From: Candidatus Hydrogenedentota bacterium
Lineage (GTDB): Bacteria > Hydrogenedentota > Hydrogenedentia > Hydrogenedentales > SLHB01
DNA: 36,056 nucleotides
NCBI GenBank assembly: GCA_019695095.1
Contig: JAIBAQ010000047.1
Location: 1-36,056 of the forward strand
Direction: 5' to 3'
Below the pieces are notes generated by a model. It was not told the DNA's origin. It searched no databases and worked only from the letters and a program-made list of their open reading frames with translations. Each line of letters opens with the position of its first letter. Position 1 is the first letter of the stretch. Below, piece by piece: positions 19,199-28,099 of the stretch. A program made the position numbers and the translations under genes.

Positions 19199-21088
19199 CT
19201 AGTTAGGTCTGCTTCCTCTAGGTGCTGATTGTCTCGACGCCACAGACTTGGGGGACTTTGCCTTCTTCTCTGGCGTGACAACCACCGGCTTCGTCATGGT
19301 TTCGGGCCTCTTAGAGAGCATCAGAGGAGGAACGCGAAACGAGTCCGGGATCCACTTTGCCAATTGCAGGTCGAACTTGTCGCGGACGGGAAAACCATCC
19401 GTGAACATCTCCTGCAGATAGCTTTCCGTAGTTTCTTTCTGGCCCACGGCCCGATAGAACGCCTCTCGCCTGTAGGCTTCCATCATTGGCAGTTCCTTTC
19501 CTTCGGGCAACGGTGTCACGACTTCTTTGGCCGTCGCCATCTCAGGACTGCCGATGGGCGCTCCCCAGCGCAGTTCCGGACAGTGATTCGGATCAAACGA
19601 CAAGTCGTACAGGCGGCGTTCCAGTTCCAGCAGGCTGACTGAAACCTTTTCGCCTGCGCTATTGGTGTATTGGAAGAACTTCTCCGCAAACACCCGGCTC
19701 TTCTCCGAAACGAGCGATTGCGCCAAGTCCTCGCGCCCTTCCGTGTAGTACCATTCCAACCCCGACAAATCGACCAGATCCGGTTGCCGGTCGTACCAGC
19801 GCACGACATTGTCCATCCAATCCGCGAGGTGGTAGTAGCGCGCGCGAATATCGATGTCCGACGACGCCGTGCTGAACTGTCCCCAACGCCCGCCCGCCGT
19901 GAAAATGTTCTCGGAGCGATCATTTTCCGGGAACGTTATCGGGCCGTTATCCTGGACGTCTTTCCAACCTTCCTGAACAATCTCCTCGCGCATTGCGAAG
20001 AGGTTCAGCAATTGGTCCGCGTAGTCACGCAAAAACACCGCGGGCGCCACGCGTTCACCCGGCTTGCGCATGCGCGCCTGGATGAACTCGTGAAAACTGG
20101 TTAATTCCATGCCATTTTCCACGATATGCTGCGTGCGGCTGATTTCCTCTATGCGATCATACTGTTCCGTCGAGTACCCGAACTCCGCCATCTCCGCGTC
20201 GGTTCTCCGGCGAATGCTGACGACCTTGCCGTTCTCATCGGTCTCGGCAATCGGATACCGCCACACACGCAGCCCTTGAAAACAACCGGCATACTCGCTG
20301 CCGGCGCGGTCCGACTGCTTGGCCGGAATCCCCATCACCGCGTTCAGACCGTTGAACGAGTAGATGTCACGCGAAGCCGCCGTCGTGGAATCCAGGAAAT
20401 GCAGTTCGCCGAAGCGATCCACGTCCGCAAGAATCAGCACGTGCCCGTCCAGGTAATGCATGCACCCTGGCAATAAGTACTGCGGCGTGATCGCCACGGG
20501 AACCGTGTCCGACAGCTCCGAGTTCTTGTTGAAAGGCTCAACCCGCAGATTGCCTGTGCAATACCCCGTTACCGCGTTCGAGAAGAAGTCCTGCGGCGAT
20601 TCCGCGTCCTGGCTCGAATAGGTTCCCACCGGGATGTTGTGGCTTGACGTACGCAAGTCGCCGCCTGTCGACCGCACGTAACTGATCATCCACGGCAACC
20701 CGCGCCGGTACGCGTAGTACGACGACAGGGTGACGGTCAGCTTTCCGCAATCGATCACGCCGTTAATCGACCGCATGATTGACACATCCAACTGCGGATT
20801 GGCCTGCTCGCCCGCGAATTCCGGGTCCAGCAACAGGTTCATCTCAGGGTCCGTCAGCACCCGCTCGATCTTCGCGCGCCGCTGCTCCACGGTCCCCTGG
20901 CACTTCTTCACGTAGATGTGATTAATCCACTTTGCAAAATGATGCGTCTCCGGCACCGTCCACTGTCGCACGATTGGCCATGCGCCGCCGTCGCCATGAA
21001 TCGAAGGTGGATTGGGGTCTTCGGCCCGAGCCGAGACCATCAGAACAGCCGCCGCCACGCCAACAATCGCCACACGCAATCTACGCAC
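19199..21088 (-). CDS. Large exported protein, possible NlpC/P60-like papain fold
   Basis: I do not recognise this 629-aa protein as a named family. The GTG start has GGAAGGA 10 nt upstream and gives a signal peptide ending ARA (about residue 22). Residues 110-135 read NGVIDCGKLTVTLSSYYAYR, close in spacing to the DCSGLV-YVYR block around the catalytic Cys of NlpC/P60 peptidases, with Cys114. HYLDGHVLILADV (His216) and LHFLDST (Asp233) could supply the rest of a papain-like triad. This is inference from pattern. The remainder is charged and helical with no membrane span, and the last 40 residues are basic and low-complexity (KKAKSPKS, APRGSRPN). It precedes the CocE gene by 150 nt on the same strand. 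It may be a cell-wall or protein-processing enzyme. Confidence 0.75.
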   Translation of the reverse strand: MRRLRVAIVGVAAAVLMVSARAEDPNPPSIHGDGGAWPIVRQWTVPETHHFAKWINHIYVKKCQGTVEQRRAKIERVLTDPEMNLLLDPEFAGEQANPQLDVSIMRSINGVIDCGKLTVTLSSYYAYRRGLPWMISYVRSTGGDLRTSSHNIPVGTYSSQDAESPQDFFSNAVTGYCTGNLRVEPFNKNSELSDTVPVAITPQYLLPGCMHYLDGHVLILADVDRFGELHFLDSTTAASRDIYSFNGLNAVMGIPAKQSDRAGSEYAGCFQGLRVWRYPIAETDENGKVVSIRRRTDAEMAEFGYSTEQYDRIEEISRTQHIVENGMELTSFHEFIQARMRKPGERVAPAVFLRDYADQLLNLFAMREEIVQEGWKDVQDNGPITFPENDRSENIFTAGGRWGQFSTASSDIDIRARYYHLADWMDNVVRWYDRQPDLVDLSGLEWYYTEGREDLAQSLVSEKSRVFAEKFFQYTNSAGEKVSVSLLELERRLYDLSFDPNHCPELRWGAPIGSPEMATAKEVVTPLPEGKELPMMEAYRREAFYRAVGQKETTESYLQEMFTDGFPVRDKFDLQLAKWIPDSFRVPPLMLSKRPETMTKPVVVTPEKKAKSPKSVASRQSAPRGSRPN

Positions 21089-21487: not shown

Positions 21488-21789
21488 CCACATTAATTGA
21501 TGAAAGGGATGAGGTACTCAACGTGTTCAGTCTCCTTGCGGGTGTGGGGATTCGTGCCGTACGAGAACATCCCCTATAGTTGAGGGACGAATCGTTGCAC
21601 TGTCGCCAGCCCAAATGGAGCTTGATGGAGAGATGGGACCGTCCTGCCTGCCGACGCGTGTGTCGGCGGAAACCGGACGCTACGAGTTCATCGTGTCGCA
21701 GGGTGTCTTGCGCTTGCGCCCGCGTTTGCGCATCTCTACACTTCTTTGCGGACGCAATTCCGCAAACCTGGATTGGGGGGCCTGTTATT
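21488..21789 (+). promoter_or_regulatory. Upstream region of the RpiB-like gene
   Basis: No gene is supported. A weak promoter candidate is TTCGTG at 21551-21556, 18 nt, and TATAGT at 21575-21580, pointing at the RpiB-like gene about 200 nt away. The frame is open upstream of the chosen start but has no recognisable protein content. Confidence 0.25.
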
Positions 21790-22341
21790 ATGCAACGCCG
21801 TACCTTCTTGAAGGCAGGACTTGGGGCCGCCGCCATCATTGCCACCGCTTCCCACGCGCAAACCAACGAGGAGCACACCATGAACATCGTACTCGCGGCC
21901 GATCCCTTTGCCCTGGAACTCAAAGAATCCGTCAAGGCACATCTCGAAAAGAAGGGACATAAGGTGCTCGACGTGGGCGCGGTCAAGGATAAGGAAATTG
22001 CCTACTACGACGGGGCCCCCGCCGCCGCCAAACTCATCCAGAAAGGCGAAGCGCAACGCGGCATTCTCTTCTGCGGCACCGGCGCCGGCATGTGCATCGT
22101 CGCCAACAAGTTTAAGGGCGTCAACGCTGTCAGCGTGGAATCCGTTTTTGCCGCGAAGATGGCCCGCGCCGTCAACGATTCCAACGTCATTACCATGGGC
22201 GCGATGATTGTCGCCCCCTGGATGGCCAACGCCATGGCCGACGCCTGGCTCGAAACCAAATTCACCGAAGGCCTCGAACCCTACGCCGATTTTATTAAGG
22301 ACGCCTGCTCCAAGGTAAACGCGCTCGATACGGGGCAGTAA
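21790..22341 (+). CDS. RpiB/LacA/LacB-family protein with Tat-like leader
   Basis: Homologue of RpiB/LacA/LacB sugar-phosphate isomerases (aldose-ketose isomerisation by proton transfer). From ATG 21790 it is 183 aa and starts with a Tat-like leader QRRTFLKAGLGAAAIIATA ending SHAQ; a G6 run lies about 10 nt upstream. From an internal ATG at 21880, with GAGGAG 6 nt upstream, it is a standard 153-aa family member. The core motif GILFCGTGAGMCIVANKF keeps the catalytic Cys. But the family DHAG/DHVG motif reads DPFA, YPxYA reads YYDGA, the ring-opening His before ND reads Val, and the C-terminal phosphate-binding Arg residues are not seen. It may isomerise an unphosphorylated sugar outside the cytosol, or have lost activity. 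A GH2 gene follows on the same strand. Confidence 0.85.
   Translation: MQRRTFLKAGLGAAAIIATASHAQTNEEHTMNIVLAADPFALELKESVKAHLEKKGHKVLDVGAVKDKEIAYYDGAPAAAKLIQKGEAQRGILFCGTGAGMCIVANKFKGVNAVSVESVFAAKMARAVNDSNVITMGAMIVAPWMANAMADAWLETKFTEGLEPYADFIKDACSKVNALDTGQ
21868..21882 (+). promoter_or_regulatory. Internal ribosome site and ATG in the RpiB-like gene
   Basis: GAGGAG (21868-21873) precedes an in-frame ATG (21880) by 6 nt, exactly where the isomerase domain begins. It is stronger than the site for the upstream start. It may make a leaderless cytosolic form from the same message, or it may be the only real start. Confidence 0.45.
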
Positions 22342-22510: not shown

Positions 22511-25186
22511 ATGAAGAGAATCGCGTTGTCTATCGCACTGCTGGCAATGGTGTTGGGAGCGGCCCAGGCCGATGTCATTTCCCTGAACGACGATTGGCGG
22601 CTGCAATCCTCCGCCAAGATATCCGGGACGGGAAGCGCGATTGCGGCGACCGGTTTCAATGTGGCGGGGTGGTATCCGACGCCGGTCCCGCGGACGGTGT
22701 TGGCCGCGCTGGTGGACAATAAGGTCTATCCCGATCCGTATTACGGACTTAACCTGAAGTCCATTCCCGGATATCAAGATCGGCTGTGGCTGCGCATGCG
22801 CGAGGACAGCCCGTTTGCGGTGTCGTGGTGGTATCGCAAGGAGTTTGACGCGCCAGCGGACCTCGCGGGCAAGCAAGTTGGGTTGCATCTTGATGGCATC
22901 AACTACCAAGCGAATGTGTGGCTGAACGGCAAGTTGATTGCGAGCAGTGACGATGTGAAAGGGATGTTCCGGCGCTTCGAGTTCGATGTGGCTGACAATG
23001 TTCTTCCTGGAAAGAAGAATTGCCTGGCCGTCGAGATCATCCCTCCGGGACTCGTACCCGACAAGAATTACCGCACGAAGCAAATTCAAGCGACGACCGG
23101 TTGGGACGACCACAATCCGCAACCGCCCGATCTGAACATGGGCATCTGGGAAGACGTATACCTGTCCGTTACCGGCCCGGTGCGAATCGCGAATCCGTAT
23201 GTCCACGCTGACTTGGAGACGCCGAGCCTGGACATGGCCCACCTGACCGTGTGGGCGCATCTGAAGGGGCGCATCGAAGAGCTGTACAAAGAGCGCAATA
23301 AACTAGACATCGTTCTTCACGGAAGGATCGGCTCGATCGAGTTCTCGAAGCCCATTCCCGTCGATGAGGATATTGTCGAGGGCGATTTCTTGACGGCCGT
23401 ATGCTCACCGCTTGAGTTCGAACAGTTGAACATTGCCAAACCGCGCGTGTGGTGGCCGAATCCGCTGGGTCCGCAGGATATGTACGAGCTGGAACTCAGC
23501 GTGACGGTCAATGGAGAACCTTCCGATTCCATCCGTCTGCCGTTTGCCATCCGTAAAACCGAATCCTACATCGACGAGAACGGCTGGAGAGGTTTTCGCA
23601 TCAACGGACGCAACATTCTGATACGCGGTGGCGCGTGGATGACTTCTGACATGCTGCTTCGCTTCGACAACCGCCGCTACGACGCCCTGGTGCGCTATGC
23701 AAAGGAAGCCAATCTCAACATGCTGCGCCTCGAAGGGTTCTCGATTCGGGAGACCAACGAGTTTTATGCGACATGCGACAAGTACGGCGTCATGGTGACG
23801 CAACAGCTTTTCGGTCGAAGCATCCCCGACGAGGCGCTCGCGATTGACTGTATTCGCGACACGGTGCTGCGCATCCGTAATCACCCAAGCCTTGTGCATT
23901 TCCTCGGCCACGACGAAACATTGCCAAGATATCCGCTCGACGAAGCGTATCGCGGAATCATCGCGAAGTATGCGCCGGATCGCTCGTACCAGCCGCATTC
24001 CGGAGCTTTCGACATTGAGGGGCGTTACCTCACGGGCGGTACGCGCACGGGCACGCGCGAATTGTGGACCTATGCGGGACCGCGCAAGTATTACGACGGG
24101 CATGAAGACGGGGCGTGGGGTTTTGCGCAATCGGGCGGCATCGGTGGAATCATCGCGCCCTATGAATCCGTGCGCCGCTTCATCCCGCAGGATCAGCAGT
24201 GGCCGTTGTGGACCGACGCGATGTCGTTCCACACCGTCACGCAAGGCGGTCACTTTTTCGATGCGGCCATCGAGGCCATGAACAAGCGTTACGGAGAACC
24301 CGCCTCGATTGAGGATTTTTGCCGGACCGGGCAGGTGATGAACTACGAATGCGCCCGCGCGATGTTCGAGGCATACGGCCGCAACAAGTATGACGCGAAG
24401 GGCATCACGACGTGGAAGTACGACGCGGCGTGGCCCGCCGTGATGACTTGGCACTATGTCGACTGGAATCTCATTGCGTCTGGCGCGTACTACGGCGCGA
24501 AGAAGGCATGTGCGCCGCTGCACGTGCAGTATTCGTATGACGACCACTCCGTCTATGTGGTCAACACGCTCAGCAAGGCGCGCGATGGACTGCATGTCGT
24601 CGCCAAAGTCTATTCCGATGATATGCGCGTCGTACAAGAACAGAGTGCCAATGTTTCCATCGAGTCCGATGGCAAGACCCGCGCCTTTGTCATGGAGTGG
24701 CCACGGAATCTTACAAGCATTTTCTTCCTTTCGCTTGAGTTGTCGGACTCTTCCTCCAAACGGATAGATGAGAACATCTACTGGCTGTCTTCCACTCCCG
24801 ATAGTGTCGCCACGAACAACGACCAGTGGGTAGGCTTCAAAGTGGAGCAAGAGACGTGGGCCAATCTAAAGGGATTGCGAAGCCTGAAGCCGGCGGCAGT
24901 GAACGTGAAGTCTTCTACGCGCACTGACGGCAGCGATTCGTGCATTGATGTGACACTCACTAATGACTCGAACGCCATTGCCTTCGGGTTGCGTTTGGCG
25001 ATTCTCAAAGGCAGTGGGGGAGATGAGGTCGCGCCGTGCTACTGGAGCGACAACATCGTGAGCCTGCTGCCAGGAACCACGCGGACGTTGCGCGCGCAAT
25101 TTGCGCAAACGGAATTGGACGGGGCGCCTGCCGTGGTTCGTGTGGAGGGGTGGAACGTGCAATCAGTGTCGCATGAGACCAAGTAG
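22511..25186 (+). CDS. Exported GH2 protein, exo-glucosaminidase/mannosidase-like, nucleophile replaced
   Basis: An 891-aa glycoside hydrolase family 2 protein with a signal peptide (MKRIALSIALLAMVLGAAQA) and AAAGGGG upstream of the ATG. The N-terminal sugar-binding domain has VPRTVLAALVDNKVYPDPYYG, as in exo-beta-D-glucosaminidases and related mannosidase-like GH2 enzymes. An immunoglobulin-like domain follows, then the barrel with WRGFRINGRNILIRGGAW. The acid/base region HPSLVHFLGHDE keeps Glu469, but Asp replaces the usual Asn before it. The nucleophile strand, normally F-x-T-E before a Pro/Glu-Ser block, reads FAQSGG, with Ser at 541 and no Glu there. The retained PYESVRRFIP block anchors this alignment. 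It may be inactive, use another nucleophile, or bind glycans. C-terminal beta domains run from about 690. Confidence 0.88.
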   Translation: MKRIALSIALLAMVLGAAQADVISLNDDWRLQSSAKISGTGSAIAATGFNVAGWYPTPVPRTVLAALVDNKVYPDPYYGLNLKSIPGYQDRLWLRMREDSPFAVSWWYRKEFDAPADLAGKQVGLHLDGINYQANVWLNGKLIASSDDVKGMFRRFEFDVADNVLPGKKNCLAVEIIPPGLVPDKNYRTKQIQATTGWDDHNPQPPDLNMGIWEDVYLSVTGPVRIANPYVHADLETPSLDMAHLTVWAHLKGRIEELYKERNKLDIVLHGRIGSIEFSKPIPVDEDIVEGDFLTAVCSPLEFEQLNIAKPRVWWPNPLGPQDMYELELSVTVNGEPSDSIRLPFAIRKTESYIDENGWRGFRINGRNILIRGGAWMTSDMLLRFDNRRYDALVRYAKEANLNMLRLEGFSIRETNEFYATCDKYGVMVTQQLFGRSIPDEALAIDCIRDTVLRIRNHPSLVHFLGHDETLPRYPLDEAYRGIIAKYAPDRSYQPHSGAFDIEGRYLTGGTRTGTRELWTYAGPRKYYDGHEDGAWGFAQSGGIGGIIAPYESVRRFIPQDQQWPLWTDAMSFHTVTQGGHFFDAAIEAMNKRYGEPASIEDFCRTGQVMNYECARAMFEAYGRNKYDAKGITTWKYDAAWPAVMTWHYVDWNLIASGAYYGAKKACAPLHVQYSYDDHSVYVVNTLSKARDGLHVVAKVYSDDMRVVQEQSANVSIESDGKTRAFVMEWPRNLTSIFFLSLELSDSSSKRIDENIYWLSSTPDSVATNNDQWVGFKVEQETWANLKGLRSLKPAAVNVKSSTRTDGSDSCIDVTLTNDSNAIAFGLRLAILKGSGGDEVAPCYWSDNIVSLLPGTTRTLRAQFAQTELDGAPAVVRVEGWNVQSVSHETK

Positions 25187-26815: not shown

Positions 26816-28099
26816 ATGAACGTAACCAATCGCCGTACCTTCCTGAAAGCGTCCGGAGCGGGTCTGATCGCAGGCGCCGTTTTTCCCGGAGTCTCTAGTG
26901 TAGCCAAGGCGGCTCCAAGCGAGCGCGTGCGCCATGGGATCATCGGGGTAGGAGGGCAGGGAAGACACCACGCGAAGCAGTTTTCCTCGTTTGCGGATTG
27001 TGAGGTTGTGGCGATCAGTGATGTGGACCCGGCTCAGATCCAAGACGCGAAGTCCAAGGTTCCCGACATTGCCGGGGCAACGGTTCACGCGGACTTTCGG
27101 GCACTGCTCGAAGACCCGACCATCGATTCTGTCAGCGTCGTCACGCCCGATCACTGGCACGCTCCCGTGTCGCTGGCCGCACTACTTGCCGGTAAGCATG
27201 TATACGTGGAGAAACCGTGCGCACACAACATTCATGAGGCGATGGCGCTGAAAACGGCCGCGGCGAAATCAGGGAAATGCGTGCAACAGGGGACCCAGGG
27301 CCGTAGCGGCGAGAGTCTGCGGCAGGCGGTGACCCTGCTGCGGGATGGCATCATCGGCAAGGTCCGCATGGCGAAGGCCATCAACCACCAACTGAGAGAA
27401 CCAATCGGACGCGAGCCAGAGACGGATCCTCCCGCTGGTGTCAATTACGACATGTGGCTTGGGCCGGCGCCGGTGCGCCCGTTCACAAGAAATCGCTGGC
27501 ACTATCAGTGGCACTGGTTCTGGGACTACGGCTGCGGGGACATGGGCAACGACGGCATTCATCAGATCGACCAGGCCCGGTGGGGGCTGGGCGTAGGCAT
27601 TCCAAAGGCTGTAAGCGCCACCGGCGGCCAACTCTTCTATCAGGACGACCACGAAACCCCGGACACTCAGGTGGTCACGTTCGAATACGACAACTGCTAC
27701 CTCCTCTATGAAATGCGTTTGTGGACGGACTATAAGCTGGAGGGGCACGACAACGGCGTGGTGTTCTACGGGGACAAAGGGACGTTGGAGTTTGGCCGTG
27801 GCGGATGCGACGTGAGTCTCATAGGGGAAGAGAAGAAACACCTCGGTCCGTATGCTGATATCCGGGACCACATGCGCAATTTCCTCGATTGCGTGAAGTC
27901 GAACAACCCGGCGGGGTTGAACGGGGGAATCGAGGAGGGAGCGATCTCAACAAGTCTCTGTCATCTAGGGAACATTGCGACACGCGTTGGAAGACGACTT
28001 CGAGTCGATCCGGTGTCCTGGCAGTGCGTGGACGACGCCGATGCCGCCGCGCTCTACAAGCGCGAATACCGGAAAGGGTACGAGCTCCCCATACTCTAG
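26816..28099 (+). CDS. Gfo/Idh/MocA oxidoreductase, Tat-exported
   Basis: A 427-aa Gfo/Idh/MocA family enzyme with a Tat leader (NRRTFLKASGAGLIAGAVF) and a purine-rich ribosome site (GAGAG) about 8 nt upstream. The Rossmann motif is HGIIGVGGQGRHH at about residues 41-53, and the catalytic lysine is in YVEKPCAHN. The second signature is GNDGIHQIDQARWGLG, and aromatic residues in RWHYQWHWFWDYG probably line the sugar pocket. It is only distantly similar to the other Tat-exported copy at 8.4-9.7 kb and belongs to a different subgroup, so it is not a local duplication. An exported enzyme of this kind would oxidise or epimerise a sugar with tightly held NAD(P). It stands alone between the MFS gene and the convergent DJ-1/PfpI gene (18 nt gap). 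Confidence 0.92.
   Translation: MNVTNRRTFLKASGAGLIAGAVFPGVSSVAKAAPSERVRHGIIGVGGQGRHHAKQFSSFADCEVVAISDVDPAQIQDAKSKVPDIAGATVHADFRALLEDPTIDSVSVVTPDHWHAPVSLAALLAGKHVYVEKPCAHNIHEAMALKTAAAKSGKCVQQGTQGRSGESLRQAVTLLRDGIIGKVRMAKAINHQLREPIGREPETDPPAGVNYDMWLGPAPVRPFTRNRWHYQWHWFWDYGCGDMGNDGIHQIDQARWGLGVGIPKAVSATGGQLFYQDDHETPDTQVVTFEYDNCYLLYEMRLWTDYKLEGHDNGVVFYGDKGTLEFGRGGCDVSLIGEEKKHLGPYADIRDHMRNFLDCVKSNNPAGLNGGIEEGAISTSLCHLGNIATRVGRRLRVDPVSWQCVDDADAAALYKREYRKGYELPIL

Follow-up and report, generated by a model that had tools for sequence, protein, structure and literature searches.

We identify, at positions 21790 to 22341 of the forward strand of the window (the whole 36,056-nt stretch of DNA analysed), a gene for a 183-residue RpiB/LacAB-family isomerase-like protein that combines a Tat-type leader with a phosphate site stripped of its usual residues. 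We consider it probable that the product is a catalytically active, RpiB/LacAB-fold isomerase exported through Tat to the periplasm, where it would act on an unphosphorylated sugar, sugar acid or polyol-derived ketone. RpiB and LacAB themselves are cytosolic sugar-phosphate isomerases.

The family assignment rests on the translation, Pfam and an AlphaFold model. The reading frame starts at ATG 21790 and its translation begins MQRRTFLKAGLGAAAIIATASHAQTNEEHTMNIVLAADPFA; the LacAB_rpiB domain (PF02502; 21886 to 22272, forward strand, protein residues 33-161) scores 139.7 bits against a cut-off of 24.7, and the NCBIfam subfamily uniting RpiB, LacA and LacB (TIGR00689) scores 118.8 against 88.3, which places the protein in the superfamily. 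It nevertheless falls below the NCBIfam cut-offs for the rpiB equivalog (TIGR01120; 113.5 versus 138.65 bits) and the DerI equivalog (96 versus 240), and far below those for lacA (71.2 versus 181.1) and lacB (58.0 versus 312.55). With the AlphaFold model (pLDDT 86.7, the leader being the low-confidence part), Foldseek places Clostridium thermocellum RpiB (3he8) as the nearest fold, at TM 0.93 by target length, and gives E. coli RpiB (2vvr/1nn4) TM 0.92, also by target length. An earlier note, made from this DNA alone, had described an RpiB/LacA-like protein with a Tat-like leader, a description that the domain score and the conservation of the leader in relatives bear out.

Our alignment covered 108 members of the family, among them E. 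coli K-12 RpiB, whose numbering is used here; the canonical comparison set comprises 75 of them, E. coli RpiB and 74 others. In the window protein His10 of the 'DHAG' motif is replaced by Pro, Pro44 of 'YP' by Tyr and the ring-opening His99 by Val, so that the altered DHAG, YP and His-before-ND motifs described earlier are all confirmed, while Arg110, Arg133 and Arg137 are replaced by Met, Leu and Ala. The loss of the phosphate-binding arginines had likewise been claimed, with the proviso that they might turn up elsewhere in an alignment; no such relocation was seen, and the only arginines left in the domain, R90 and R126, lie off the phosphate positions. Cys66, Thr68, Asp9 and Asn100 are retained, in agreement with the claim of an intact catalytic Cys block. 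The catalytic cysteine itself (Cys95 of the window protein, E. coli Cys66) lies in the motif CGTGAGM, is encoded at 22072 to 22074 of the forward strand, and is found in 31/31 members of the clade described below and in 74/75 canonical members.

This pattern is shared by 31 relatives from Hydrogenedentota, Planctomycetota, Verrucomicrobiota and one Bacillota, which form a single clade separated from canonical RpiB with 99/99 support (IQ-TREE, 55 sequences). All 31 keep Cys66, Asn100 and Thr or Ser at position 68, and thus the cysteine together with the GTG loop; Asp9 is kept in 30, L168 having Glu instead. All 31 have lost His10 (mostly to Pro), His99 (to Ile or Val), Arg133 (mostly to Leu, with Lys in L007) and Arg137 (mostly to Ala), so that neither the window protein nor any other clade member carries the His10/Arg133/Arg137 and His99 set diagnostic of RpiB; Arg110 is retained in L007 and L008. 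Canonical members, by contrast, possess nearly all phosphate and ring-opening residues (Arg133 in 75/75, His99 in 74/75). The clade has also gained a Glu at position 88 (31/31; Glu117 of the window protein), a residue that is not common at this site in canonical members. Judged from the aligned residues, the phosphate pocket of the window protein no longer has basic residues and is mostly hydrophobic (Pro, Met, Leu, Ala). The altered site is a trait of a clade, not of a single sequence, and the window gene is not a one-off.

In characterised enzymes the lost residues hold the phosphate and open the sugar ring (PMC3755991, PMC4783025), and activity on the natural substrate is lost in the H102N mutant of Leishmania RpiB (PMC4783025) and in the H9A mutant of LacB (PMC3755991). 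Equivalent changes in the clade could therefore mean a dead enzyme, and the protein might instead bind or sense sugars in the periplasm, its fold retained and its catalysis lost; a binding protein was the other option raised in the earlier note. Loss of both the ring-opening and the DHAG histidine, which in known members lowers or abolishes activity on their own substrates (PMC3755991, PMC4783025), is what such a protein might show. We regard it as unlikely, however, because the clade as a whole retains the catalytic residues. Across 31 sequences spanning four phyla, Cys66 and Asn100 never vary and the Asp and Thr positions hardly do, which would be unexpected had catalysis been abandoned, and leaderless relatives lie in catabolic clusters, as enzymes do. 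For an active isomerase, the non-basic pocket and the missing ring-opening His suggest that the substrate is probably already open-chain, short, or a carbocycle. Unphosphorylated substrates have precedents in this fold: DhuI takes an unphosphorylated uronate (PMC12838403), LacAB acts on D-allose and D-psicose (PMC3755991), and Leishmania RpiB acts on D-ribose (PMC4783025).

By profile scores the clade is carried by 15/68 Hydrogenedentota genomes (one of them as a fragment at a contig end, which its sequence assigns to the leader type), and in this phylum full-length clade members score at least 235 bits and canonical RpiB at most 121. It is rarer elsewhere, with 5/392 Planctomycetota and 10/388 Verrucomicrobiota genomes above threshold, counts that include at least one protein, L159, that is canonical on the tree. 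Canonical RpiB is also present in 13/15 of the carrying Hydrogenedentota genomes, where the clade protein is thus not the housekeeping enzyme. The source genome (G000; 6.77 Mb, an approximately 95% complete assembly) has one PF02502 match, and neither canonical RpiB nor RpiA was found in it, so that the housekeeping ribose-5-phosphate isomerase is absent, was left out of the assembly or has been replaced. Replacement by the window protein, acting as a ribose-5-phosphate isomerase, seems to us highly improbable: the phosphate site is lost, canonical RpiB coexists with the clade in most carriers, the assembly is incomplete, and several related genomes without the clade likewise have no RpiB match.

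The leader, a Tat-type signal peptide MQRRTFLKAGLGAAAIIATASHA encoded at 21790 to 21858 of the forward strand, has an RRxFLK motif, a hydrophobic region and a putative cleavage site, cleavage being expected after SHA from the sequence; the motif and the hydrophobic stretch recur in 12 relatives, giving 13 clade members from three phyla. Signal peptides were assessed by motif, hydrophobicity and conservation rather than by a trained predictor, and the Pfam TAT_signal score of 19.9 bits is slightly under its cut-off of 22.7. Under the same Tat-motif test 0/77 canonical members were positive, compared with 13/31 in the clade, and by this comparison the RR motif of the window gene exceeds chance. 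Two further members, the near-identical Verrucomicrobiota loci L163 and L164, bear a Sec-like leader (MKKAVV...AACTCA), bringing the leadered members to 15/31. Between orthologues, second codon positions of the leader vary least and third positions mostly most, and the 60 nt upstream are unrelated; the Tat leaders show in-frame length changes across three phyla. TatC is encoded in the source genome, and we infer that the window protein is exported.

The exported isomerase proposed in the earlier note thus gains from the leaders, from TatC and from the loss of the phosphate site, but leader and altered site do not come as one package. Among the homologues collected, Arg133 and Arg137 are missing from every member, a leader is present in only about half, and the 16 leaderless members all share the altered site. 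The leader state requires at least three changes on the tree (IQ-TREE, 55 sequences), and the clade's deepest branches are among the leaderless ones, so that alteration of the site came first and the export leader was added afterwards.

The gene has two candidate translation starts. A G-rich Shine-Dalgarno-like run (21775 to 21780, forward strand; -9.3 kcal/mol with the anti-SD) precedes the leader start, and a second such site, GAGGAG (21868 to 21873, forward strand; -7.6 kcal/mol), lies within the coding region before an internal ATG (21880 to 21882, forward strand) that coincides with the start of leaderless relatives in an alignment with L006, L097-L100 and L169. Tat-leadered genes have an internal Met at or just upstream of this position, and most have an AGGA-type sequence at Shine-Dalgarno distance before it, although the residues encoded there vary (EEHT, EERT, EESK, KEST, KEKP). 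Anti-SD energies at the internal site range from -4.9 to -9.5 kcal/mol in 12/13 Tat-leadered genes, and as a set these sites are stronger than those of 278 internal in-frame ATGs (p = 1.7e-6, for related, not independent, sequences). In L160 and L161, Verrucomicrobiota genes with Tat leaders, the internal Met precedes the usual core start by a few residues and itself follows a strong SD-like GGAGG.

The true product might accordingly begin at ATG 21880 and be a cytosolic isomerase, the leader being untranslated or unused, as the strong GAGGAG, its retention in nearly all Tat-leadered relatives and the exact coincidence with the leaderless start would suggest. This too we find improbable, given that the RR motif persists in three phyla through in-frame length changes, together with a hydrophobic stretch and a credible cleavage site, that most leader starts are preceded by a good Shine-Dalgarno site of their own, and that the Sec-leadered pair, with its different leader, has no internal Met at all. 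Homologues that all began at the internal ATG had been named as evidence against a leader, and 15/31 begin upstream of it. With the leader start preferred, the internal start may be a relic of the ancestral one, or it may still function as a second start that gives a cytosolic form, in which case one gene may yield both exported and cytosolic proteins.

Both action on unphosphorylated substrates by the RpiB fold and an RpiB whose phosphate site is dismantled (PMC3212906) are already known. An exported RpiB-family member was not found reported in the open-access papers searched, most subscription journals lying outside that scope. RpiB (3he8; 2vvr/1nn4) shares with the window protein the fold and Cys66/Thr68/Asp9/Asn100, and differs from it in keeping His10, Arg133, Arg137 and His99, in having no export leader and in the rpiB equivalog score. 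The RpiB-like protein of Coccidioides immitis (3qd5/3sdw) is likewise reported (PMC3212906) to be without the ring-opening His and the majority of the phosphate-binding residues, but there the His is replaced by Ser and one Lys holds the phosphate, its description includes no leader, and by score it is no close relative. LacA/LacB (4lfk), which binds D-psicose and D-ribulose (PMC3755991), has the same fold and catalytic Cys, yet is a heteromer that keeps its own phosphate Arg and whose equivalog cut-offs the window protein misses widely. DhuI belongs to the RpiB superfamily and takes an unphosphorylated substrate, and L007 adjoins KduD- and KDPG-aldolase-type genes; the DhuI structure (4u8e) is distant, however (TM 0.64 by target length), and DhuI is longer and is described without a leader. 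Assignment of the window protein to DhuI was rejected by score: 4u8e reaches 27.6 bits, and only over part of the profile, whereas C. thermocellum RpiB reaches 132. PRK09273, used in place of DhuI to search the phylum, is uninformative, as it matched nothing there and none of the controls.

Downstream on the same strand, about 170 bp away, begins an exported GH2 gene resembling exo-beta-glucosaminidases (22511 to 25186, forward strand; Ig_GlcNase 91.5 bits, Glyco_hydro_2_N2), which is possibly co-transcribed with the isomerase-like gene; no terminator or promoter pattern above chance was found between the two. The GH2 neighbour pointed out in the earlier note is therefore real, but it is specific to this window, being absent from every related locus examined. 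The window also holds two Tat-leadered Gfo/Idh/MocA oxidoreductases, one of which (26816 to 28099, forward strand) is nearest to the glycoside 3-dehydrogenase BT_2158 family, far below its cut-off, and a 629-residue protein (19199 to 21088, reverse strand), without a match in Pfam, whose N terminus is signal-like. Occasional Gfo/Idh/MocA genes apart, exported members have no recurrent partner, most standing singly in varied surroundings.

Leaderless loci contain a KduD-like SDR and KDPG aldolase (L007), KDPG-aldolase- and KDG-kinase-like genes (L156), a TRAP transporter (L006), an IolO-like epimerase (L008) or a split transketolase with MMSDH and DhaK (L168), and the exported L163 follows KDPG aldolase, KDG kinase and a DUF4838 gene. 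KDG/KduD/TRAP-type genes lie near 6/31 clade members versus 0/55 canonical ones (Fisher p = 0.0016, an optimistic value because the query set was picked after those loci had been seen), and the neighbourhoods point weakly to sugar-acid or inositol-type catabolism. In Hydrogenedentota PF04962 accompanies the leadered clade in 9/9 carriers versus 11/59. A link to KduI through this family was discarded, the source-genome match being IolB in an inositol cluster (L178, contig C70, 2681 to 9212) with IolC, IolD, MMSDH and a class II aldolase. The PF04962/iolB association holds when either family (p = 0.001) or genome size is used to stratify and is lost when both are used jointly (p = 0.25), so the co-occurrence is only a hint. 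Replacement of L-rhamnose isomerase, an idea taken from the rhamnulokinase and rhamnosidase near L096, was rejected because true RhaA occurs in most carriers, G039 included, and an association with UxaC disappeared on stratification by family.

In the mechanism that we propose, the Tat system would export the isomerase already folded, and in the periplasm it would interconvert the carbonyl position of its substrate (aldose-ketose or keto-keto) via a cis-enediolate, with the retained Cys acting as the base and the GTG loop providing the oxyanion hole. Translation begun at the internal ATG could in addition supply a cytosolic form. More tentatively, and with distinctly less confidence, a whole RpiB/LacAB branch may have turned to unphosphorylated substrates, part of it becoming periplasmic via Tat and Sec after the phosphate site was lost, with dual products from the ancestral start.

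Under profile-based annotation these genes would be labelled ribose-5-phosphate isomerase B or a sugar-phosphate isomerase, probably in error. Having lost its phosphate site, and with an export signal in many of its members, the branch probably acts beyond the inner membrane on sugars without phosphate or on related compounds. Being small and probably soluble, the proteins should lend themselves readily to substrate screening. If the proposal is true, aldose-ketose chemistry would be placed in the periplasm of Hydrogenedentota, Planctomycetota and Verrucomicrobiota, groups in which Tat-leadered Gfo/Idh/MocA oxidoreductases hint at sugar processing before uptake.
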